Assembly (NCBI GenBank): GCA_022844135.1
Contig: JALHMG010000001.1
Coordinates: 157,021-221,020, forward strand
Length of the DNA stretch: 64,000 nucleotides
From: Lysobacterales bacterium
Lineage (GTDB): Bacteria; Pseudomonadota; Gammaproteobacteria; Xanthomonadales; SZUA-5
Direction: 5' to 3'
Part shown: piece by piece, positions 3,207 through 53,346 of the stretch
Layout: every line of letters begins with the position of its first letter
Position numbering within the stretch: the first letter of the stretch is position 1
The notes under the pieces: model-generated
What the model was told of the DNA's origin: nothing
Seen by the model: only the letters and a program-made list of their open reading frames with translations
The model's database searches: none
Program-made: the position numbers and the translations under genes

Positions 3207-3677
3207 ATGCCCTATCTTGTTGAGCCCATCGGCTTCATCAACGCTACCCGGAAGTCTCCTGAGGATGACTACTGGGGCGAAGAAGTCGCTGAAATCAGTC
3301 TTGCCGAGAGCATCGACGCCTCTGCCCTTGCTGGCCTTGAAGCCTTCTCGCACATAGAAGTCCTGTTCGTCTTCGATCAGGTACCGGAAACCAGGATCGT
3401 GACCGGCGCCAGGCATCCGCGCAACAACGAAGCCTGGCCGAAGGTGGGCATCTTTGCCCAGCGGGCGAAGAACAGACCAAATCGCATCGGCAGTACCATC
3501 TGCCGACTTCTAAGCGTCCAAGGTTCGAAGGTCATCGTGCGGGAGTTGGACGCTATCGACGGCACACCAGTTCTGGACATCAAGCCGGTCATCCGAGAAT
3601 TCCTACCCAGGGAGGCGACGACGCAGCCCGATTGGGCAACAGAGCTGATGTCCGACTATTGGTCAAAGCGCTCGTAG
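3207..3677 (+). CDS. TrmO/TsaA-type SAM-dependent methyltransferase-like protein, 156 aa
   Basis: Belongs to the TsaA/TrmO (YaeB/VirR) beta-barrel family, whose characterised members N6-methylate t6A37 of tRNA-Thr with S-adenosylmethionine. Visible features are the opening IGFINATRKSPEDDYWG, the FSHIEVLFVF strand, and ARHPRNNEAWPKVGIFAQRA with RPNRIGST, the segments lining the SAM pocket. At 156 residues it is the compact form, lacking the extra C-terminal domain of E. coli TrmO, so the substrate may differ. I use the ATG at 3207; an in-frame ATG at 3141 lies inside transposon debris. Confidence 0.85.
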   Translation: MPYLVEPIGFINATRKSPEDDYWGEEVAEISLAESIDASALAGLEAFSHIEVLFVFDQVPETRIVTGARHPRNNEAWPKVGIFAQRAKNRPNRIGSTICRLLSVQGSKVIVRELDAIDGTPVLDIKPVIREFLPREATTQPDWATELMSDYWSKRS

Positions 3678-3973
3678 TGTTCCGCTCAAGAGACCAGCGC
3701 CAAGTGGCTGATTTTTCTCCCCACTTATGGGCGCGGGGTGCGGCCTTGGCCTTGTCCAAGCGAGCGCACAGACGTCGGTGATGGGCGCAGAGTGCGGACT
3801 TGGCCGCGTCGCAAGGTGGCTGCTGGAGGCGTCCATCCCATCATTCAACCCTGGCCGCGGCAGACCGCCTTGCTCGCACCGCGCACAGGCATCATCATGC
3901 GCCGCGCGGGCAAGTTGGCCTGCCTCCGCGGTCTGGCTTAAGTCGAACGTCTGGCATCACAGAACTAACCCGC
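3678..3973. other. Intergenic stretch with a short direct repeat
   Basis: Holds no gene I can support. Two copies of a 24-bp sequence starting ATGGGCGC (3727 and 3781) lie 54 bp apart. The GCCAAGTGGCTGATTT sequence at 3701-3716 resembles those at the ends of the two genes upstream. Confidence 0.4.
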
Positions 3974-17572: not shown

Positions 17573-18205
17573 TCAAAGCGCGACGACCGCATCCGGCAGG
17601 GCCGCAAACGTTCGTTCGCCCGGCGCCGGGCGAATCGTTTCGCCGCCGGTGAAACGGCCGAACGCGGGCAGCACCAGGGTGCGTTCGCGCAGGTAAAACA
17701 CCGGGACGCGCTCGCTGATGCCGGGTGCTCGGAGTTTGCGATACGGATGAACGTGGCCGGCGATTTCCGGTCCGCTCGATGTGCCTGGCTGGTGTACGCC
17801 GATCAGTCGGCCAAGGGCGATGGTGGCTGCGCATTCGTCCAGATCCGCGGACACCGAATCGACCTGGCGATCGTGATTGCCGGCGGCAACGCGGATTCTG
17901 AGCGCGCCACGCGCTCGCCGCCAATCGCGCCAGCGGGCGAGCCAGGGTGCGTCGTCGGCCACCGGGCCATGCAAGAGATCGCCCAGTACGGCCAGTTCGC
18001 GGGCATGCGTGAGCGCCAGCAAGCGGTCGATACGGACCAGGTCGCCCGCGGTGCTGCCCCGCGGTATCGATATGCCGTGCTGGCGGAATATGTGGCTTTT
18101 CCCCAGGTGCCAATCGGCAATCACCAGCGTGGCGGTCTCCGGGAGCAGCAGCGCACGATCGGGCAACAGGCGCATCGCCTGGCCTTGCCATTCGATCTCG
18201 ATCAT
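17573..18205 (-). CDS. pdeM: Ligase-associated DNA-damage-response endonuclease PdeM, 210 aa
   Basis: A calcineurin-type metallophosphoesterase with the metal ligands DWHLGK, GDLLHG, AGNHDR and GHVHPY in order. The family (TIGR04123) is encoded with the Lhr-type helicase and often with an ATP-dependent ligase and an exonuclease in a DNA repair operon. Its start overlaps the helicase stop by four bases (ATGA), indicating translational coupling. The ligase and exonuclease partners are not in this neighbourhood. Confidence 0.88.
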   Translation of the reverse strand: MIEIEWQGQAMRLLPDRALLLPETATLVIADWHLGKSHIFRQHGISIPRGSTAGDLVRIDRLLALTHARELAVLGDLLHGPVADDAPWLARWRDWRRARGALRIRVAAGNHDRQVDSVSADLDECAATIALGRLIGVHQPGTSSGPEIAGHVHPYRKLRAPGISERVPVFYLRERTLVLPAFGRFTGGETIRPAPGERTFAALPDAVVAL

Positions 18206-20601
18206 GCGCGCTGTTCCATCTCAATGGCGGCCGCGCGCACGCGCGTTTGCCAATCTTCGTGGCTCAAGCTGCCGCGCAGGCGCTCGGCCCAAAGGGCGAA
18301 GGAGAACGGCGTCAACTGCGTCGGTGTGGTCAGGATGATCGGCTGGCGCTGAATGCGTTCGAGCGCGACGCGCAGGCGATCGATATCGAGCCAGTCATCG
18401 AGCACTTCCTGCGTGGCTTGCGCCAGCAATACGTGATCCGGATCGTGTTCGGCGAGCACATCGAACAGCAGGCCGCTGGAGGCCTGCAATTGCCTCAGCG
18501 TGCGCGATTTTCCCGGCGTTCCGGCATGCGTGAGGCCAGCGATCTGCGCCACATCGCGGAACTGGCGTTTGGCCATCTCGGCCAGATTGATGCTGCGCTC
18601 GATGTCCTCGATCAGCCGATCTGGAGAGAGCAATGTCCGCAGCTTTTCGGCGTCGAGTTCGAAGCGATGGCGCGAAGACAACAGCACGCCGTAGTCGTTG
18701 ACCGTAAAGCTGTAGCTGCTTTTGGCAATCGACTTGAGGCGATATGCCAGCAGCGGCGCCAGTCCTTCATGCGCATGGCGTCCGGCGAACGGAAACACGC
18801 CTAAGTGATGGCCATCGCGTGTGCGCAGTTTCTCCGCCAGCAAGTGATGCTGCGAGGGCAGGGCGGAGCGCTCGGCTTGCACATGCAGCAGCGGCGCAAC
18901 CAGATCGACCTCCGGGTCGTTCGGCCGCTGGTCGATCAAAGCCAATACACCGCTCGCCAGCTGACTCGACAGCGGCATTTTGCCGCCCATCCATTGCGGC
19001 ACGGCGCCCGCTCGCGCGCCAGCCACTTTGACCTGCGCGACCATGTCGCGCACGCGAACCAACTCCAGCGTGCGCCCGGCAAACAGAAACCGCGCGCCCG
19101 GCGCCAGCCGCGAAATGAAGCCCTCTTCGACATGCCCGAGTACGCCGCCAGCGACAAACCGGACCTGCATTTGCCCGTCGGCGACAATGGTGCCGATCGA
19201 CCAGCGGTGGCGCCGCGCGATCGACGGCGCAGAGACCACGAAGCGATCGCCATCGCGCACGACACGCTGGAAGTCCGGGTACTGGCTGAGTTTGTCGCCG
19301 CCGTGCACGATCACGTCCAGCACCCGATCGAACAAGGCATCCGATACGTCCGTGTATGCGTGCGTGGTGCGGACTTCCGCAAGCGCCTGATCTCGCGTGA
19401 AACCACCGCCCAGCGCCAGCGTGACCAGATGTTGGGCGAGCACATCGATGCAGAGCCGTTTCGGAATGCGCGCTTCCACCTCGCCGCCGACCACCGCGCG
19501 CCGCGCCGCTGCGATTTCCAGGAATTCCAGCGCTTGCGTGGCGACGAACGCGATCGATGAGCGCTCGCCGGGCCGATGGCCGCTGCGACCGGCGCGTTGC
19601 GTGACCCGACCGATGCCCTTGGGACTGCCGATCTGGATCACCGCATCGACGGCCGGAAAATCGACGCCGAGGTCGAGCGTGGAGGTGGCGACCACGCAGC
19701 GCGCGCGGCCCTCGCGCAACGCGTTTTCCACGTCCGAACGGGCATCGCGATCCAGCGAGCCGTGGTGCAGCGCCAGCGATTCAGTGTCGAGCGGCCAGAC
19801 AGCGCTCAGCGCCTCGAACCACAGTTCCGCTTGCGAGCGTGTGTTCGCAAACACCAGCGCGTTGCGCGCGGCGAGTACGCGCTCCAACACGCGCGGCAGT
19901 TGCTTCAAGCCCAAATGGCCCGCCCACGGGAAGCGCTCGATGCTGGACGGACGCAGCGACTCGATGACGATGCGTTTGTGCTGCGCTGCAGTGACAACAG
20001 CAGCATCGTTGCCGACCAGCACCTGGGCGGCCTGATCGACATTGCCGAGCGTGGCCGAACTGCCCCAGATCTTCAAGTTCGGCGCCAGACACTTGAGCCG
20101 CGCCAGACACAATTCCAACTGCACGCCGCGTTTGCTGCCGAGCAGCTCATGCCATTCATCGACGATGACCGCATCCAGCGCGTGGAAACGCGCTTGCTCA
20201 TCCGCATACGAGAGCAGCAGCGACAAACTTTCGGGCGTCGTCACCAGCGCAAACGACCCCTCGCGCTTGAAGCGCGCGCGCTCGGCGGCGCCGGCATCTG
20301 CAGTGCGACGGGCCACGCGCAGATCGATGCCCAGCTCATCGAGCGCGCTTTGCAGGTGCTTTTGCGTATCGCCCGCCAGCGCGCGCAACGGCGTGATCCA
20401 GAGCACCTTAAGCGCGCCGCGTGCGGTCCTGGCTGCCAGCGCCAACGGACCGCCCCAAAGCGCCAAGGTTTTGCCGCTGCCCGTCGGCGCATGCAACAAA
20501 CCGCTGCGGCCCGAGAGGTAAGCAGACCAGCACTGGCGTTGAAAGTCCGCGGGCGCATAACCGCGCTTTGCGAACAGGTTTTCGATAGCAGAAGCGTCCA
20601 T
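18202..20601 (-). CDS. Ligase-associated DNA-damage-response DEXH-box helicase (Lhr family), 799 aa
   Basis: Superfamily 2 helicase: Q-motif region FQRQCWSAYLSG, Walker A LHAPTGSGKT, DEXH box VDEWHE, motif III SSATLG, and motif VI QRAGRSGHR. The C-terminal half matches the Lhr winged-helix and DEAD/H-associated region. Members unwind DNA in repair with PdeM. I start at 20601 (MDASAIENLFAKRGYAPADF); the longer open frame upstream is only translation of the repeat array at 20674-21246. It is the first gene of a two-gene operon. Confidence 0.9.
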   Translation of the reverse strand: MDASAIENLFAKRGYAPADFQRQCWSAYLSGRSGLLHAPTGSGKTLALWGGPLALAARTARGALKVLWITPLRALAGDTQKHLQSALDELGIDLRVARRTADAGAAERARFKREGSFALVTTPESLSLLLSYADEQARFHALDAVIVDEWHELLGSKRGVQLELCLARLKCLAPNLKIWGSSATLGNVDQAAQVLVGNDAAVVTAAQHKRIVIESLRPSSIERFPWAGHLGLKQLPRVLERVLAARNALVFANTRSQAELWFEALSAVWPLDTESLALHHGSLDRDARSDVENALREGRARCVVATSTLDLGVDFPAVDAVIQIGSPKGIGRVTQRAGRSGHRPGERSSIAFVATQALEFLEIAAARRAVVGGEVEARIPKRLCIDVLAQHLVTLALGGGFTRDQALAEVRTTHAYTDVSDALFDRVLDVIVHGGDKLSQYPDFQRVVRDGDRFVVSAPSIARRHRWSIGTIVADGQMQVRFVAGGVLGHVEEGFISRLAPGARFLFAGRTLELVRVRDMVAQVKVAGARAGAVPQWMGGKMPLSSQLASGVLALIDQRPNDPEVDLVAPLLHVQAERSALPSQHHLLAEKLRTRDGHHLGVFPFAGRHAHEGLAPLLAYRLKSIAKSSYSFTVNDYGVLLSSRHRFELDAEKLRTLLSPDRLIEDIERSINLAEMAKRQFRDVAQIAGLTHAGTPGKSRTLRQLQASSGLLFDVLAEHDPDHVLLAQATQEVLDDWLDIDRLRVALERIQRQPIILTTPTQLTPFSFALWAERLRGSLSHEDWQTRVRAAAIEMEQRA

Positions 20602-20673: not shown

Positions 20674-21246
20674 GGTACGCGGACCCACGGTCCGCAGTTT
20701 CGCTGTTGCTCCCTGCACGCGGCCCCACGGCCCGCAGCTTTGCTGTTGCTTTTTGGTACGCGGCCCCACGGTCCGCAGCTTAGCTGTTGCTTTTTGGTAC
20801 GCGGACCCACGGTCCGCAGCTTTGCTGTTGCTCCCCGCACGCGGCCCCACAGTCGCTTTTGGTACGCGGACCCATGGTCCGCAGCTTTGCTGTTGCTTTT
20901 GGTACGCGGACCCACGGTCCGCAGCTTAGCTGTTGCTTTTTGGTACGCGGACCCACGGTCCGCAGCTTCGCTGTTGCTCCCGGCACGCGGCCCCACGGTC
21001 GCTTTTTGGCACGCGGCCCCACCGCCCGCAGCTTTGCTGTTGCTTTTGGTACGCGGACCCACGGTCCGCAGCTTAGCTGTTGCTTTTTGGTACGCGGACC
21101 GGCGGTCCGCAGCTTTGCTGTTGCTCCCAGCACGCGGACCCACGGTCCGCAGCTTCGCTGTTGCTCCCAGCACGCGGCCCCACAGCCCACAGCTTCGCTG
21201 TTGCTCCCCGCACGCGACCCCACAGCCCAAAGCTTCGTTGTTGCCC
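20674..21246. repeat. Fifteen-unit tandem array of the GTAC double-hairpin repeat
   Basis: Units of about 38 bp, consensus beginning GGTACGCGGACCCACGGTCC. Each holds a hairpin GCGGACC-CAC-GGTCCGC followed by a smaller one CAGC-TTT-GCTG and a TTGCTTTTT or TTGCTCCCC tail. Two subtypes (GCGGACC and GCGGCCC) occur. Two units (about 20840-20863 and 20986-21009) carry the same internal deletion, showing that blocks of about four units were duplicated together. The array fills the region between two divergent genes. Long open frames across it are not genes. Confidence 0.9.
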
Positions 21247-21301: not shown

Positions 21302-22282
21302 ATGTCGATCAAAGCCATCCAATGCGTCGCCTGGGGCGGCCCTGAGCTGCTGCAACTGCGCGATGTGGAACTGCCCGAGCCTGGCCCCAGGCAAGTGCGC
21401 GTGCGCGTCCACGCGGCGGGCGTGAACTTCCCGGATGTGCTCATCATTCAGAAGAAGTACCAGATGCAGCCGCCGCTGCCGTTTACGCCGGGCGCCGAAG
21501 TGGCGGGTGTCGTCGAGGCCGTCGGTTCGGACGTGACCACGCTCAAAGTGGGCACCACCGTCGCTGCGGTCTGTGGCATCGGCGGATTCGCGCAGGCCTG
21601 CATCGTCGAGGCAGCGCAGTGCATGCCGCTGCCGCCCGGCACGCCGATGGATCTCGCCGCGAGTTTCGGATTGGCGTATGGCACCAGTTGGCACGCCGTG
21701 CGCGACCGCGCCGCTTTGCAGCCTGGCGAAACGTTGCTGGTGCTCGGCGCCGCTGGCGGCGTCGGCCTTGCGGCGGTGGAGATCGGCAAAGCCATCGGCG
21801 CGCGCGTGATCGCTGCCGCCAGCGACGAAGCCAAACTCGCCATCTGCAAAGAACACGGCGCCGATGAGGTGATCAATTACGAAGACGATGATCTTCGCGC
21901 GGCGCTGAAAGCGCTGACCGATGGCAAAGGCCCAGACGTGATTTTCGATCCGGTCGGCGGCAAATTCGCCGAGGCCGCGTTTCGCAGCATCGCATGGCGC
22001 GGTCGCTATCTGGTGATCGGCTTCGCCGCTGGCGAGGTGCCCTCGCTGCCGCTCAATCTGCCGCTGCTCAAAGGTGCTTCAATCGTCGGCGTGTTCTGGG
22101 GCGAGTTCGCCAAACGCGAACCCGCAGCCAACGCCCGCGGCATGCTGGAGCTGGTGCGCTGGATGGGCGAGGGCAAAATAAAGCCGCGCATTTCCAAGCA
22201 CTATGCGCTGAGCGAGGCGCCGCAGGCGCTGATGGACATGGCCGCGCGGCGGGTGGTGGGCAAGGTGGTGGTGGCGCCGTAA
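21302..22282 (+). CDS. NADPH:quinone oxidoreductase-family protein, 326 aa
   Basis: A zinc-free medium-chain dehydrogenase/reductase (quinone reductase group). The N-terminal catalytic domain has VHAAGVNFPDVLIIQ and FTPGAEVAGVVEAVG, and the Rossmann domain has LVLGAAGGVGLAAVEIGKA. The family reduces quinones or alpha,beta-unsaturated carbonyls with NADPH. I start at ATG 21302; upstream in-frame sequence is translated repeat. Its promoter must lie within or next to the repeat array. Confidence 0.9.
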   Translation: MSIKAIQCVAWGGPELLQLRDVELPEPGPRQVRVRVHAAGVNFPDVLIIQKKYQMQPPLPFTPGAEVAGVVEAVGSDVTTLKVGTTVAAVCGIGGFAQACIVEAAQCMPLPPGTPMDLAASFGLAYGTSWHAVRDRAALQPGETLLVLGAAGGVGLAAVEIGKAIGARVIAAASDEAKLAICKEHGADEVINYEDDDLRAALKALTDGKGPDVIFDPVGGKFAEAAFRSIAWRGRYLVIGFAAGEVPSLPLNLPLLKGASIVGVFWGEFAKREPAANARGMLELVRWMGEGKIKPRISKHYALSEAPQALMDMAARRVVGKVVVAP

Positions 22283-25276: not shown

Positions 25277-25445
25277 GGCACGCGAACCCACGTCCCGCAG
25301 CTTCGCTGTTGCTTTTGGTACGCGGACCCACGGTCCGCAGCTTTGCTGTTGCTTCTGGTACGCGGACCCACGGTCCGCAGCTTTGCTGTTGCTTTTTGGT
25401 ACGCGGACCCATGGTCCGCAGCTTTTGCTGTTGCTCCCGCTACGC
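25277..25445. repeat. Four-unit array of the GTAC double-hairpin repeat
   Basis: Same unit as the 20.7-kb array, in the same orientation, with full GCGGACC-CAC-GGTCCGC hairpins in the middle units and a decayed first unit. It lies downstream of the GNAT gene. Confidence 0.88.
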
Positions 25446-25489
25446 ACTTGTGCCCGATCGATGTGAATCACGCGCAGCTCGTGAACTCA

Positions 25490-25662
25490 GCCCCGAAGGG
25501 GCGAAATGCAATAGCCCAGGGCGCAGCCCTGGGTTGCACATTGCGAAACAATAGAGCCCTGAAGGGGCGAAACAGCGCGGTTGCGCCCTTTCAGGGCTTG
25601 GTTATTGAATGCGCTTGACCCAGGGCTGACGCCCTGGGCTATTACATTGCGCCCCTTCGGGA
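25490..25662. repeat. Nested long inverted repeat, about 173 bp
   Basis: Outer arms of about 43 bp, 25492-25534 and 25618-25661, starting CCCGAAGGGGCG and containing GCCCAGGGC, are almost perfect inverse copies. An inner pair (AGCCCTGAAGGGGCG against CGCCCTTTCAGGGCT) nests within. As RNA or extruded DNA it would form one long branched hairpin. A related CCCAGGGCGTTGCCCTGGG block lies at about 25787-25805. It encodes no protein. Confidence 0.8.
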
Positions 25663-25971
25663 CTTCGAGCTCTGCGCGTCGAGATCGGGTGCGGCGACAT
25701 GTTCGATGCGGTCTTGCAGTGCTCGGGTCATGCGGCGTGATGCGGCGTTCCTTCAGAACGCGGTCATCGCTACTGGTCGCGACCCAGGGCGTTGCCCTGG
25801 GCTGGTATGCGTTGCCCCGTCGGGGCGGTCGGCCATGTTTTTTCAACGCATCCAATTCCAAAACCTAACGTCTGAAAAGCCACGCTGCGCGTGCAGCGGG
25901 GGAAGTCTCCCCCGCACCCCCTCAAGAGTTCTTAAGCTTCAGATGATCAGAGATCAGAGGGATCAGAGGGA
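25663..25971. other. Intergenic debris between the inverted repeat and the NACHT gene end
   Basis: Positions 25701-25734 repeat the 5' end of the NACHT gene coding strand (28786-28819) with four differences in 34 bases, apparently the start of a lost paralogue reading MTRALQDRIE. A GC-rich hairpin region follows at 25880-25915, and a GATCAGAGG-type microsatellite at 25945-25986 runs into the NACHT gene's 3' end. No intact gene is present. Confidence 0.5.
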
Positions 25972-28848
25972 TCAGAGGTCAGAGGGTCTAAACAGGGAAG
26001 GACGCAACACCACACGGAAACCCACATTGAAGAGGCGAAAGTGCGTGAGACCCCAGTCGCGAAACGCACAGCGCGCGTAGCCACGATGATCGACCCACGA
26101 GCCGCCGCGCAGAACCCTGAGTACATCGCTTCCCGCGTCAAGATTTTCGCGACGGGCATCGTTGACGTCGTAGGGATAACTGAAGTCTGGGAGTTCCCAT
26201 TTGTCGCCCCACAAGCTACGCGTCCATTCCCAAACGTTGCCGCTCATCTCTTCGCAGCCATAGACACTGGCACCACGGGGCCAGCAGCCGATGGCGCTGG
26301 TCGAGCCGATCATCGATTCGACGTTGGCGGATTGTGCGTCGAAATCCTCGCCCCAGGGATAGTCGCGAGCTGGATGTGGATTGTGCACTAATGACGAGTT
26401 CACCGGCAGTATCGATGGCAGTTGGTCCAACGTTCCCCACAGCGGCGTGCCACGCACGGCAAGTCCGCCGCGCGCAGCTTTCTCCCATTCTGCCTCCGAC
26501 GGCAGGGCCGCCACATAACCCTTCGGCAGCTTGCTCTCCCAGTGCTGGGTCAGCTTGTCGCAAAAGCGCCGAGCGTCGTGCCAGCTCACATGGGTGACGG
26601 GGTCATTCGAGCGCTGATCGACGCCAGGGCTCTCCATCGTCCCACCATGGCGTTCCAGATATTCGCGCCACTGTGCAACGGTTAGCGGGAAGCGCGCAAT
26701 GAAGTACGGGTAGTTCAAGTGGACCGTGTGCTGCGGTTTTTCGTCGCCATAGCGATCGCTACCCATCACAAACGGCCCAGCCGGTACGAAGCAGAACTGC
26801 ATGTCATCGAGATGCATCACCTCGGGTCTGGGATCGCCCAGTGTCGCGAGCGTGCGCCCGGCGAGTGCGCGCTCGGTGCCGGGCAAACACGTGCCGGTCA
26901 GGATGGTGCATTGCCAGTTGCGCACGCGCTCCAGCTTGGGCGTGTCGCGTGGTGCGATGTGAGCGAGATCGGCGCATTCGGCGAGGACGCGGCCGGCGAG
27001 CAATGCGCCCCAATGACTGGCGGCATCGGCCTGCGCATCCGGCGCGGCCGGGCAGAGGGTTTCGGCCAACGTCCAGATATTGAGCGACGATCCGCGGCCG
27101 GATTTAGCGGCGGCGAGCAGCGCCACTTCTCGCCAGCGATTCGGATCGCGCTGCGCCAGTTTCGCGAGCTTGTCGGGAAAGTCGTCGTCCGTCAGGTGAC
27201 AGGCCGCGAGGTATTCCTGGAAGGTGCGATGCGGGAACTGGTACATCTCGCTGCCGTGCTCCAACAGCAAGCCGGCGCGTTGGCTCAGGTAGCGCTGCAG
27301 AAGCTTGAGATTTGGCTGGAGATCGCCACTGGCGCGCAGCAGCGCTGAGATGACCTTCTCCTGAGGTATATCGGCGGTGTCGGTTTGCGGTTCCTGGCTT
27401 TCGTGCGCTTCGAAAGCCAGACGGTTAAGTTGCCGCCGGATCGCATCGCGGTCGGCATTCAAGTATTCGCCGAGGCTGGGCTCAACAACCTCGGCGCCGT
27501 TGTCGTCGAAGCTGATTTTAGTGTGCTCCCAACGATCGAGCAGCATCTCCACCGCTTTGTCGTAAAGCTCCTCAGGTTTTTCCGGCAACGAACCTTGGCG
27601 CTCGGTTTGCAGTTGCGCAATCAAGGTGAGCAGCAGCGGACGCTCGGCGAGGCCGCGCAGGCGGGTATTGCGCTCGGCCGCCTGCTTCAGCACGCCGGCG
27701 CGATGAGCGGCATTTGCGGCGGTCAATCGCTCCAGGCCCACCATGTGCGCATACCACGCGTCCACGAAGCCGGCGATCTGTTCTGGCGTGAACGCTTGCA
27801 ACTGTACTTGCGCAAAACCGTCGAGCTTCCATTCCTGCTTCTGGTACGCATAGGTGCGCGAGGTGACCAGAAAGCGACAGCGCGCAAACGTTGCGACGAA
27901 GTCCTGCACGGCTTGCTTGATTTGCTTGCGGCGCGTGTGTGCTTCCGGCACTTCATCGAGGCCGTCCAGCAGGATCAGGCCGCCGCGCTCGATCAGTGTT
28001 TGATGCAGATGGGGCGCGAACTCGCCGAGCGCTGCTTTGTCGAGTTGCCCATGAATGAAGTTCCAAATGGTCTGCGCGTTCGTTGCTTTGCCGCCCTCGG
28101 GCAATTGGGTGGCAAGATCGCGCAGCGTGATCAGCACCGGCAGCAGCGCGCCGTGCGTCCAGCGTTGCGGCGCTGGAGGTTCTTTGTCTTGTTCCTGGCC
28201 TGGCAATGGCCTCGTGAGGGTGGCCAGATTGGGGCCGGTCGGGCGTTCAAGCAGCTCGCCAGCCATGGCGAGTGCAACGAAGTTGACGAAGGTGCTCTTG
28301 CCGCTGCCGGGCCCACCGAGCAGCACCAGTAGGCGTTCGGCATCGAGCACGTCGAGCGCCGACAAGCGTTTGGCATCGCGCTCGTGTGCTGCGCGGTTAC
28401 GCGATTGAGCAAGCTCGCGGAGATTGTCGTCCTCGCTGCGCGTGGTCAGCAGCGCTGTGTAGACGGCCGAGAGCTGCAACTGCGCGTTGGCGCCCTCGCC
28501 AACGAATACCGGCAATTGGTTCGATTGATTGAGGATGCGCGCCAGATACGCGCGGCGCAGGTCCGATTCGCTGGCACCGGGTTTTATGCCCTTTTGAATC
28601 AGCACGCCAAGGTTGATGGTGCCGTGATTATCGCCGCCGATGCCGACGCCGCCAGCGCCCACGGCGAAGGAATCTTGCCCTTGCGCGATGGCGCCGCTGC
28701 CTGCGAATTGCGCGGACATCGCGGCGACAGCGGCATCGAAGGTTCCCTGATCGATCAGGTTTGCATCGAGCGCGCGGCGAAGTTGTTCGATGCGGCTTTG
28801 CAGTGCTTGGGTCACGCGATCAACCGCTCCGTCGACCGGTGTAGCCAT
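25972..28848 (-). CDS. NACHT-family STAND NTPase with C-terminal FGE/C-lectin-like domain, 958 aa
   Basis: Order of parts: an N-terminal helical segment (residues 1-45); a glycine-rich motif at 49-81 ending GDNHGTINLG; a NACHT NTPase with Walker A LLGGPGSGKST near 178-186 and Walker B LILLDGLDE near 291-299; a helical winged-helix/arm region; and, in the last 240 residues, a formylglycine-generating-enzyme fold (FVPAGPFVMGS, LPSEAEWEKAARGG, MSGNVWEWT, VLRGGSWVDHRGYAR, NVGFRVV). STAND NTPases of this type sense invaders and assemble when triggered; the FGE-like domain is probably the sensor, not an enzyme. I use ATG 28848; an in-frame codon at 28896 adds an unconserved leader. It is divergent from the TIR-like gene, 131 bp away. 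Confidence 0.88.
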   Translation of the reverse strand: MATPVDGAVDRVTQALQSRIEQLRRALDANLIDQGTFDAAVAAMSAQFAGSGAIAQGQDSFAVGAGGVGIGGDNHGTINLGVLIQKGIKPGASESDLRRAYLARILNQSNQLPVFVGEGANAQLQLSAVYTALLTTRSEDDNLRELAQSRNRAAHERDAKRLSALDVLDAERLLVLLGGPGSGKSTFVNFVALAMAGELLERPTGPNLATLTRPLPGQEQDKEPPAPQRWTHGALLPVLITLRDLATQLPEGGKATNAQTIWNFIHGQLDKAALGEFAPHLHQTLIERGGLILLDGLDEVPEAHTRRKQIKQAVQDFVATFARCRFLVTSRTYAYQKQEWKLDGFAQVQLQAFTPEQIAGFVDAWYAHMVGLERLTAANAAHRAGVLKQAAERNTRLRGLAERPLLLTLIAQLQTERQGSLPEKPEELYDKAVEMLLDRWEHTKISFDDNGAEVVEPSLGEYLNADRDAIRRQLNRLAFEAHESQEPQTDTADIPQEKVISALLRASGDLQPNLKLLQRYLSQRAGLLLEHGSEMYQFPHRTFQEYLAACHLTDDDFPDKLAKLAQRDPNRWREVALLAAAKSGRGSSLNIWTLAETLCPAAPDAQADAASHWGALLAGRVLAECADLAHIAPRDTPKLERVRNWQCTILTGTCLPGTERALAGRTLATLGDPRPEVMHLDDMQFCFVPAGPFVMGSDRYGDEKPQHTVHLNYPYFIARFPLTVAQWREYLERHGGTMESPGVDQRSNDPVTHVSWHDARRFCDKLTQHWESKLPKGYVAALPSEAEWEKAARGGLAVRGTPLWGTLDQLPSILPVNSSLVHNPHPARDYPWGEDFDAQSANVESMIGSTSAIGCWPRGASVYGCEEMSGNVWEWTRSLWGDKWELPDFSYPYDVNDARRENLDAGSDVLRVLRGGSWVDHRGYARCAFRDWGLTHFRLFNVGFRVVLRPSLFRPSDL

Positions 28849-29724: not shown

Positions 29725-29834
29725 CAGCTTTGCTGTTGCTTCTGGTACGCGGACCCACGGTCCGCAGCTTTTGCTGTTGCTTCTGGTACGCGGACCCACG
29801 GTCCGCAGCTTTTGCTGTTGCTTCTGGTACGCGG
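29725..29834. repeat. Short array of the GTAC double-hairpin repeat
   Basis: Two complete and one partial unit (TTGCTTCTGGTACGCGGACC type), nearly identical to each other and so recently duplicated. It lies between the convergent ends of the TIR-like gene and the amidohydrolase gene. Confidence 0.85.
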
Positions 29835-39873: not shown

Positions 39874-40928
39874 CCCGGTCTTCGCGCGTCGCAATCGCTT
39901 TTCGGTGCGCGGACCCACAGTTCGCATCCGCGCTCAACGCCGAGAACAACCTGCGGACCACAGTTCCGCGAAAAACCATTCAACCGCGCACTCAGAACCT
40001 CCCGCACAAGCAGCGCGGCGTGGCGCTGTTGATGGCACTGCTGGTGGTCGCCATCGCGACGCTCATCGCCGTTCGGATCTTCAGCATCTCCACCACCAGC
40101 ATTGCGCGCACCGAATCGCAGGCGCGTCTGGATGACGCCATGCACCTGTCCAAAGGCATGGAGGATTGGGCCATCGTGCTGCTGTGGCGCGATGCCGAAT
40201 CCGGCGATGGCATCGATACGCGCAACGACACTTGGGCCGCCACCTTGCCTCCCTTACCAGTCCCCGGCGGTTTGGTGGCCGGCAAGCTGGAGGATTTGGA
40301 TGGTCGCTTCAATCTCAACTCGCTGGTGCGCAACGGCGCGCGAGATCCGGTGGCGATGGCGCGTTTCGCGCGATTGCTGACCGCGCTCAAGATCGACCCG
40401 GCGCTGGCGGATGTGGCCGCCGATTGGATCGATGGCGATGCGCAAGTCCAGGGCCAGGGCGCGGAGGACCTGGAGTATTTGCGCGCCGATCCGCCGTATC
40501 GGGCTGCCAATCGTGCCTTCGTGCACATCTCTGAAATGCGCAAACTCAAAGGCGTCGACGACAAAATTTACGCGCGTCTGGCGCCAGAGATTGCGGCGTT
40601 GCCGATCGCGACTGGCTTTAACGTCAACACCGCGAGCGTTGCTGGTTTCATGAGCCTCGCCGATGGCATCAGCGAGGAGTTAGCCAAGCGCCTGTGGGCG
40701 CAAGGCCGCGCGCAATACCGCAACATTACCGATGTTGTCGATGCCATCACCCAGGCCGGTGTGGCGCTCGATCCGGCCTCCATGCAGGACCTGAAAGTGT
40801 CCTCGAACTTTTTCATTGCCCGCGCCGACGTCAAGCTCGGCGATCGAGAGTTTCGCTTCTACAGCCTCATCGAACGCACGCCAGCCGGCGGGCGTGTGCG
40901 GCAGCGCTCGCAGGGGGCGTTTTTCTGA
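39870..40928 (+). CDS. gspK: Type II secretion pseudopilin GspK, 352 aa, with an enlarged leader
   Basis: The hydrophobic helix follows KQRG (VALLMALLVVAIATLIAVRI) and, as in other GspK proteins, lacks Glu5. The large alpha-domain with LDGRFNLNSLV and the later FNVNTASV segment is complete. With the only available start, GTG 39870, the leader is about 50 residues instead of the usual 6-10. Part of the extension is a copy of the GTAC repeat (39897-39925). Either the long leader is used or a non-standard start nearer 40010 is. Confidence 0.85.
   Translation: MTRSSRVAIAFRCADPQFASALNAENNLRTTVPRKTIQPRTQNLPHKQRGVALLMALLVVAIATLIAVRIFSISTTSIARTESQARLDDAMHLSKGMEDWAIVLLWRDAESGDGIDTRNDTWAATLPPLPVPGGLVAGKLEDLDGRFNLNSLVRNGARDPVAMARFARLLTALKIDPALADVAADWIDGDAQVQGQGAEDLEYLRADPPYRAANRAFVHISEMRKLKGVDDKIYARLAPEIAALPIATGFNVNTASVAGFMSLADGISEELAKRLWAQGRAQYRNITDVVDAITQAGVALDPASMQDLKVSSNFFIARADVKLGDREFRFYSLIERTPAGGRVRQRSQGAFF
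39897..39925. repeat. Single diverged copy of the GTAC repeat inside the gspK 5' end
   Basis: GCTTTTCGGTGCGCGGACCC then ACAGTTCGC corresponds to the tail, foot and hairpin of the repeat unit, with the hairpin weakened. It is translated as part of the long GspK leader. Confidence 0.65.
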
Positions 40929-53114: not shown

Positions 53115-53189
53115 GGTGTGTCTCGAGTGGAAGGTTTGCAGGAACCGAATTGTGCTGATGCCACGTTGGTCGTTTATCGCTTCCTGACA

Positions 53190-53250
53190 CGCGGACCCAT
53201 GGTCCGCACGCTCGCGCAGCGAGTCGCTGCGTGCGGACCATGGGTCCGCG
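53190..53250. repeat. Large palindrome built from two inverted GTAC-repeat hairpins
   Basis: A perfect 22-bp arm CGCGGACCCATGGTCCGCAC plus GC at 53190-53211 has its inverse copy at 53229-53250. Each arm is itself nearly palindromic. The loop is 17 bp. The right edge runs into ACCAAAAAGCAACGC, which is the tail of the repeat unit reversed. Confidence 0.85.
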
Positions 53251-53346
53251 TACCAAAAAGCAACGCTTGAGTCCCAGCCACGATCCCGCTGCTGCGGGGA
53301 CTATCGGCGTTTTCGAAACTCAGTCATCCGAAGGAGGTTTCAACTA

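Follow-up and report, generated by a model that had tools for sequence, protein, structure and literature searches.

The hairpin repeated across this window (the whole 64-kb stretch of DNA that we analysed) very probably represents a REP/REPIN family of non-autonomous mobile DNA with one cognate RAYT gene (C25), placed within a clade of RAYTs whose REPs carry the foot GGWNC. More than 250 such hairpins were probably spread by this single transposase-like enzyme.

Hairpin copies in the window and across the genome

A pattern search of the 64-kb window recovered 18 matches to GTACGCGGACCCACGGTCCGC at ≤3 mismatches, compared with 0.02 expected. As claimed in an earlier note on this DNA, copies are present at five places (arrays 1 to 3, 39904-39925 and 53186-53254). 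The features are:

18202..20601, minus strand: Lhr-type DEAD-box helicase gene, left of array 1 and transcribed away from it
20674..21246, plus strand: array 1, 15 head-to-tail REP units, GGTAC foot followed by GCGGACC-CAY-GGTCCGC
20674..20695, plus strand: first intact REP unit of array 1, foot GGTAC, stem GCGGACC/GGTCCGC, loop CAC
20696..20713, plus strand: inter-unit spacer, the "second hairpin" of the earlier note, 18 nt here and AGCTTTGCTGTTGCTTTTT in neighbours
21302..22282, plus strand: zinc-binding dehydrogenase gene, right of array 1 and transcribed away from it
25277..25419, plus strand: array 2, four REP units at a spacing of 40-41 bp
29744..29806, plus strand: array 3, two REP units at a spacing of 41 bp
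39904..39925, plus strand: isolated degenerate REP, differing at 3 positions, on the border of a predicted gene
53186..53254, no single strand: REPIN, two inverted REPs with feet outward

Array 1 sits between the divergent helicase and dehydrogenase genes (the helicase reading frame is open to 20850, with the start placed at 20601 by eye and at 20718 by script). Its units follow one another in steps of 40-41 bp, with two short exceptions of 25 and 26 bp, and several have decayed to GCACGCGGCCC. The REPIN at 53186..53254 folds as a single long hairpin (-38.1 kcal/mol, z -11.1). A short tandem repeat of another kind, GATCAGAGG, lies at window positions 25952-25986, at the 3' end of the gene after array 2.

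The earlier note had proposed a genome-wide count, and the repeat is indeed abundant: 257 matches at ≤2 mismatches (137 forward, 120 reverse) occur in the 5.34-Mb genome (75 contigs), the reversed-pattern control giving 0, and GGTACGCGGACCNNNGGTCCGC has 193 exact matches. Among the matches listed, we read 253 copies at ≤4 mismatches; they come from the window and 36 fetched stretches (37 in all), after removal of two overlapping shadow hits from 255 and leaving out L124, which lies inside the window. The fetched stretches L036-L038 contain no copies. Of the 126 CAT-loop copies in the genome, 100 were listed. The copies read occupy 43 sites separated by ≥400 bp, so that the number of sites in the genome is at least 43.

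The 22-bp core of the unit consists of the foot GGTAC and the stem GCGGACC/GGTCCGC, a perfect 7-bp stem with a CAY loop that folds at -7.8 kcal/mol as DNA (z -3.5). Among the 253 listed copies the loop is mostly CAT (146) or CAC (78), and the five foot bases are kept, in order, in 242, 248, 241, 241 and 249. The earlier note had described a GTAC foot unlike GTAG; the foot does differ from GTAG, but GTAC is only the end of the five-base GGTAC, a GGWNC foot. Strict GTRG REPs are defined by the 5' tetranucleotide GT[AG]G (PMC3686654), and the present unit, with its GGTAC foot ending in C in 249 of the 253 listed copies, lies outside that definition. The foot is preceded by a pyrimidine tract: all four 5' bases are pyrimidines in 39 of 69 outer flanks compared with 19 of 483 control 8-mers, and a CT is found ≤8 nt 5' of the foot in 62/69 outer flanks of the genome (control 8-mers, 134/483).

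Adjacent inverted pairs among the listed copies have their feet outward in 28 cases, with a spacing of 40-110 bp, and inward in 4. There are also 31 same-strand runs, with periods of 28 to 47 bp, that together hold 184 of the 253 copies; the period is nearly constant within most arrays, and most arrays have a spacer of their own. A BIME-like run at C9:26374-26834 alternates between 41 and 67 bp. According to a simple codon-usage gene finder, 239 of the 253 listed copies lie outside predicted genes (the same script gives a coding fraction of 0.78 for the window), and 9 of the 14 intragenic copies form one array, where the gene finder may be wrong. The family is thus a REP family in the broad sense: a 22-bp palindrome in high copy, extragenic, occurring in inverted doublets and flanking a RAYT gene on both sides. 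Two arrays on different contigs, L048:822-1188 (C23) and L054:594-961 (C73), share flanks and unit pattern, as if they had been duplicated with their neighbourhood or as if the contigs overlapped in the repeat.

The RAYT gene and its relatives

The genome has four Y1-transposase matches. Three were family-scanned, which identified C25 as a RAYT and C55 and C18 as IS200-type; the fourth (C45) is cut by a contig end. A RAYT-family search gave 10 matches at E ≤0.001, of which C25 is the sole one over the cut-off, and narrowly so (NF047646, 82.1 bits against 80). The C25 gene (L035:3072-3725) encodes a product of 217 aa with the catalytic motifs NHVH and YIRMNP, so that it combines the HUH and single-tyrosine core of RAYT/TnpA-REP proteins with the RAYT signature. 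Its alignment profile has E. coli TnpA-REP (4er8) as first match (E 2.4e-10), and the AlphaFold model (mean pLDDT 85.2, from a 29-sequence alignment) has the same RAYT-REP complex as best fold match (E 1.8e-7, TM 0.51/0.64).

Eight plus-strand units precede the C25 gene and 11 minus-strand units follow it. The earlier note had called the repeat REP-like and had suggested searching for a RAYT with the unit in its flanks; both the copies across the genome and this gene, which carries the unit on either side, bear it out. No unit is present in the stretches fetched around the C55, C18 and C45 tnpA genes, and the IS200-type genes C55 and C18 were ruled out as the source of the REP, there being none in their fetched surroundings. 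Beside the C18 tnpA, L037:1923-3521 is a dense block of another repeat, with open frames in both directions and a masked stretch.

A separate observation concerns the C55 tnpA and Rfam family RF01687 (Acido-Lenti-1, filed as an sRNA and mentioned once, in a table, in its original paper). An inverted pair of RF01687 matches lies beside array 2, at window positions 25489-25533 (minus) and 25619-25664 (plus). Matches to this family number 31 in the genome, and many are arranged as inverted pairs, among them L036:3052-3097 (minus) and 3638-3683 (plus), and one pair lies 41-46 bp outside both ends of the IS200-like tnpA gene on C55. This tnpA or a homologue occurs at nine loci (L155-L163) in 6 of 200 genomes searched. 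Seven of the nine have RF01687 matches (E ≤0.01) no more than about 130 bp away from the gene, several of these matches being below the gathering score; no match was found near the gene at L159 and L161. The Y motif of the C55 tnpA, Y---Q--HH, is that of subclass 1.2, whose members are generally without typical terminal structures (PMC6006769). Because the matches form inverted pairs and lie close to tnpA genes, RF01687 may be the DNA end hairpin of a Y1-transposase element and not an RNA.

A scan of 84,980 species genomes for relatives of the C25 RAYT yielded 38 loci, and their flanks were searched for perfect hairpins with no foot specified. Beside the nearer relatives, the commonest repeated hairpins begin with GGAAC, GGAGC, GGACC or GGTGC, along with other repeated hairpins, and in two genomes of the same family the feet beside the RAYT are GGACC and GGATC. 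Within 600 bp of the gene at these nearer loci (L055-L085), GGWNC stands at 113 of 179 hairpins and at 28 of 31 loci (two or more times in 23 loci), and GTRG at 10 of 179 hairpins. At the C25 locus itself, all 13 hairpins within the same distance have a GGWNC foot. By comparison, GGWNC is found at 1 of the 84 other hairpins of the window. Beyond 1 kb from the gene in the same loci it stands at 12 of 127 hairpins, and these 12 may be additional REPs. Beside the distant relatives (L086-L092), none of the 17 hairpins and none of the 7 loci has GGWNC, and GTRG stands at 4/17 hairpins. The last base of the foot is C in 17 of 17 representatives, and all four bases occur in the fourth position. The C25 RAYT and its GGTAC REP therefore belong to a RAYT clade with the foot GGWNC. 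According to the sequence records, its members come from Acidobacteriota, Verrucomicrobiota, Planctomycetota, Bacteroidota and Pseudomonadota, and most are MAGs.

Other RAYTs of the same order were read at 29 of 30 fetched loci; nine have repeated hairpins, and eight of these are GTRG-footed. The ninth, L140, is a W-Q RAYT that falls outside the clade. Four repeated hairpins there fit GGTGC as part of a longer palindrome, which makes L140 either a contrary or a chance case. In a 63-row tree, 25 GGWNC rows and 9 GTRG rows need one change each (split support 89/92), and there is one foot change in all 200 bootstrap trees, with the bootstrap unsettled and three clade rows entered without a foot. 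The tree was made without L085, and L139 gave no frame. Directly after the conserved W, 25 of the 29 sequences of alignment A1 (which is without L061, L074, L080-L082, L086-L092 and L096) have M or A and 4 have Q, whereas the GTRG loci read have Q as this residue. This residue was rejected as a clean divider by foot, since L069, L079, L083 and L095 combine W-Q with GGWNC feet. A CT lies 5' of the foot at 83 of 131 footed hairpins in the clade, against 7915 of 24067 background 8-mers, and its presence is strongly locus-dependent, being absent or nearly so beside L064, L072, L073, L075, L076 and L077.

Relatives also have their own REPs elsewhere in their genomes. We searched 13 of the 38 relatives' genomes for cognate copies and counted 12; L076 was left out, the zero of its pattern being void because the pattern cannot match the L076 REP at the third stem base. 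Cognate REPs were present in all 12 genomes with a fitting pattern, at 4 to 1248 copies. Five GGAAC genomes have 7, 8, 5, 7 and 4 copies, and dispersal in them is slight, since a good part of the copies lie on one contig in each. With one broad pattern, seven more genomes gave 173, 56, 195, 7, 1248, 66 and 44 copies, and controls gave 0.

Exact copies of the GGTAC REP itself are absent from eight further genomes of the family. Two of these (G003 and G007) have a near-full-length relative of the RAYT, each beside a different GGWNC REP. A GGATC/GGACC pattern has 27 copies in G003, 27 in G007, 12 in G008 and 3 in G002, one poorly paired match in G001, and none in the genome studied here or in three other genomes of the family. 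No RAYT of the clade kind was found in G008 and G002, which belong to the genera of the RAYT-bearing genomes, despite their REP copies. From these counts, the REPs of the family accompany their own RAYT or its genus neighbour. G003 holds both systems, with GGATC REPs and a clade RAYT (L095) as well as GTAG REPs and a distant RAYT (L096).

These results bear on the reading of the repeat as an ordinary tandem (satellite-like) repeat, grown through slippage and recombination and linked to the RAYT by coincidence. The near-constant period and spacer within arrays, private to most of them, are what such growth would leave, and with 184 of the 253 listed copies in same-strand runs, much of the copy number may indeed stem from ordinary tandem duplication. 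As an account of the family, however, this is very unlikely: the same 22-bp core stands at 43 or more sites with differing spacers, inverted pairs are feet-out 28 times and feet-in 4 times, the sole RAYT over the cut-off has the unit on both flanks, and related RAYTs carry their own versions.

Stems, spacers and gene orientation

The earlier note took constant stems with varying loops as a sign of selection for structure, a claim that found no support, because this pattern is expected among recent tandem duplicates. Among 76 changed stem cells in the listed copies, 61 are single changes that break a pair and 9 single changes that keep it; double changes leave four paired and two unpaired. There is thus no excess of compensatory changes within the genome, an outcome that the earlier note had named as counting against its proposal. 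Only the comparison between genomes hints at structural constraint: stem sequences diverge there, with foot and pairing retained, in hairpins that the search had selected for paired stems. One pair of the stem in the L070 genome has gone from C-G to T-A in both arms (82 CG, 26 TA and 4 mismatched among 112 copies anchored without requiring that pair); this lends weak support, since one ancient change that was then multiplied could account for it.

Of the 43 listed sites, 20 are co-directional, 16 convergent, 4 divergent and 3 unclassified; the small number between divergent genes speaks for RNA-level elements maintained by host selection, such as transcription terminators or mRNA stabilisers. 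Array 1 is itself one of the divergent sites, however, and the uncompensated stem damage in the genome and the lack of an exact copy in the eight other genomes of the family also argue against such RNA-level elements, which we consider still less probable than a simple tandem repeat. The REPs could still have a secondary use of this kind.

The "second hairpin" that the earlier note had made part of the design is a spacer private to the arrays of the window. Among the listed copies, CAGC-N3-4-GCTG follows 16 of 17 in the window arrays and 2 of 236 elsewhere, where spacers vary from the 6-nt AGCTTT up to unrelated sequences of 25 nt. Its first C is the last base of the first hairpin (a one-base overlap), 26 of 200 shuffles fold as well as it does alone (z -0.99), and it is absent from the minimum-energy fold of both 41-nt units tried. 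These counts, spacers and folds rule it out as a conserved module. A two-hairpin element with a GTAC foot, forming a distinct kind of palindromic element, would account for those 16 of 17 copies but not for the 2 of 236, nor for the period-28 array whose 6-nt spacer has no room for a second hairpin, and is the least credible of the readings weighed here.

Comparison with known systems and proposed mechanism

The GTRG REP/REPINs of Stenotrophomonas and Pseudomonas, with their subclass 2.5 RAYTs, resemble the present system in the short GC-rich hairpin with a 5' foot, in inverted pairs, in a RAYT flanked on both sides and in a mostly extragenic location (PMC3686654, PMC6006769). They differ in the foot, here GGWNC, and in the enzyme, here on a separate branch of the tree. 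With E. coli TnpA-REP (4er8, GTAG REP), C25 has the HUH-tyrosine core in common. At the positions discussed for GTAG-foot recognition, W94, Q95, E100, H101 and R104 (PMC6006769), C25 has W, M, D, R and R; that is, W94 and R104 are kept, E100 is replaced by D, Q95 by M and H101 by R. C25 also has an extra N-terminal region (RGYLPHxD...TFRLADSLP), and the stem of its REP is perfect whereas that of E. coli REPs is bulged.

Flanking repeats without GT[AG]G, as here, are described for TnpA-Y1 classes 2.6 and 3 (PMC6006769). Class 3 is also found in Acidobacteria and Planctomycetes, but its foot is CnGA and its Y motif Y----Q, unlike GGTAC and YIRMNP, and class 2.6 is mainly from Bacteroidetes, unlike the present clade (PMC6006769). 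Subclass 2.7 is comparable in length and in its Y motif, YI[LR][NQ]NP, and is set apart by its description, which gives GT[AG]G feet and WQ against GGTAC and WM here (PMC6006769). CGTC-tagged palindromes and TIRtrons are alike in including tagged palindromes and RAYT-like genes with non-GTAG repeats, some in Acidobacteria; however, the CGTC repeats are reported without a transposase, and the TIR motif is GGGGWSAS and not GGWNC with a short hairpin (PMC3733652). Described tags are GT[AG]G, CGTC and CnGA, plus atypical repeats (PMC6006769, PMC8266576, PMC3733652, PMC3686654, PMC2817692). We did not find a GGWNC foot in abstracts and passages of open-licence REP/RAYT papers, whose supplements may hold such a listing.

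E. coli TnpA-REP binds REP in single-stranded form and cleaves it at a CT next to the hairpin; the foot plays a part in this cleavage (PMC8266576). By analogy, the C25 RAYT, an HUH single-strand endonuclease by homology, would bind the single-stranded hairpin with its 5' foot GGTAC and cut beside it, with the pyrimidine tract immediately 5' of the foot, which contains CT, as the candidate site. Rejoining of the strand elsewhere would then give the scattered, feet-out inverted pairs. Head-to-tail arrays such as array 1 would grow locally through tandem duplication, as suggested by the separate spacer and period of each array.

When GTAG was changed to GTAC, a Marinomonas enzyme cut at GA and GT instead, and a Stenotrophomonas enzyme no longer cut (PMC8266576). 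In the genome studied here it is CT that is conserved 5' of the foot. If the C25 RAYT cuts at CT, such a simple guide rule does not carry over. Two explanations offer themselves for the conserved CT: the GGWNC clade retains it but reads the foot differently, or the tract serves some other purpose. The last foot base is C and not G, and the glutamine after W is missing in 25 of 29 sequences, which could suggest that foot reading has been rewired. We consider it evenly balanced whether GGWNC hairpins and their RAYT clade form a second system of REP recognition that exists alongside GTRG, present in at least five phyla and with such a rewired reading. Searches keyed to GT[AG]G would miss GGWNC REP systems. 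The work consulted on foot reading and cut-site choice by RAYTs concerns GTRG feet; a natural clade with a different fixed foot, free to vary in its fourth base, and with matched enzymes provides a comparison set for the guide-sequence model.
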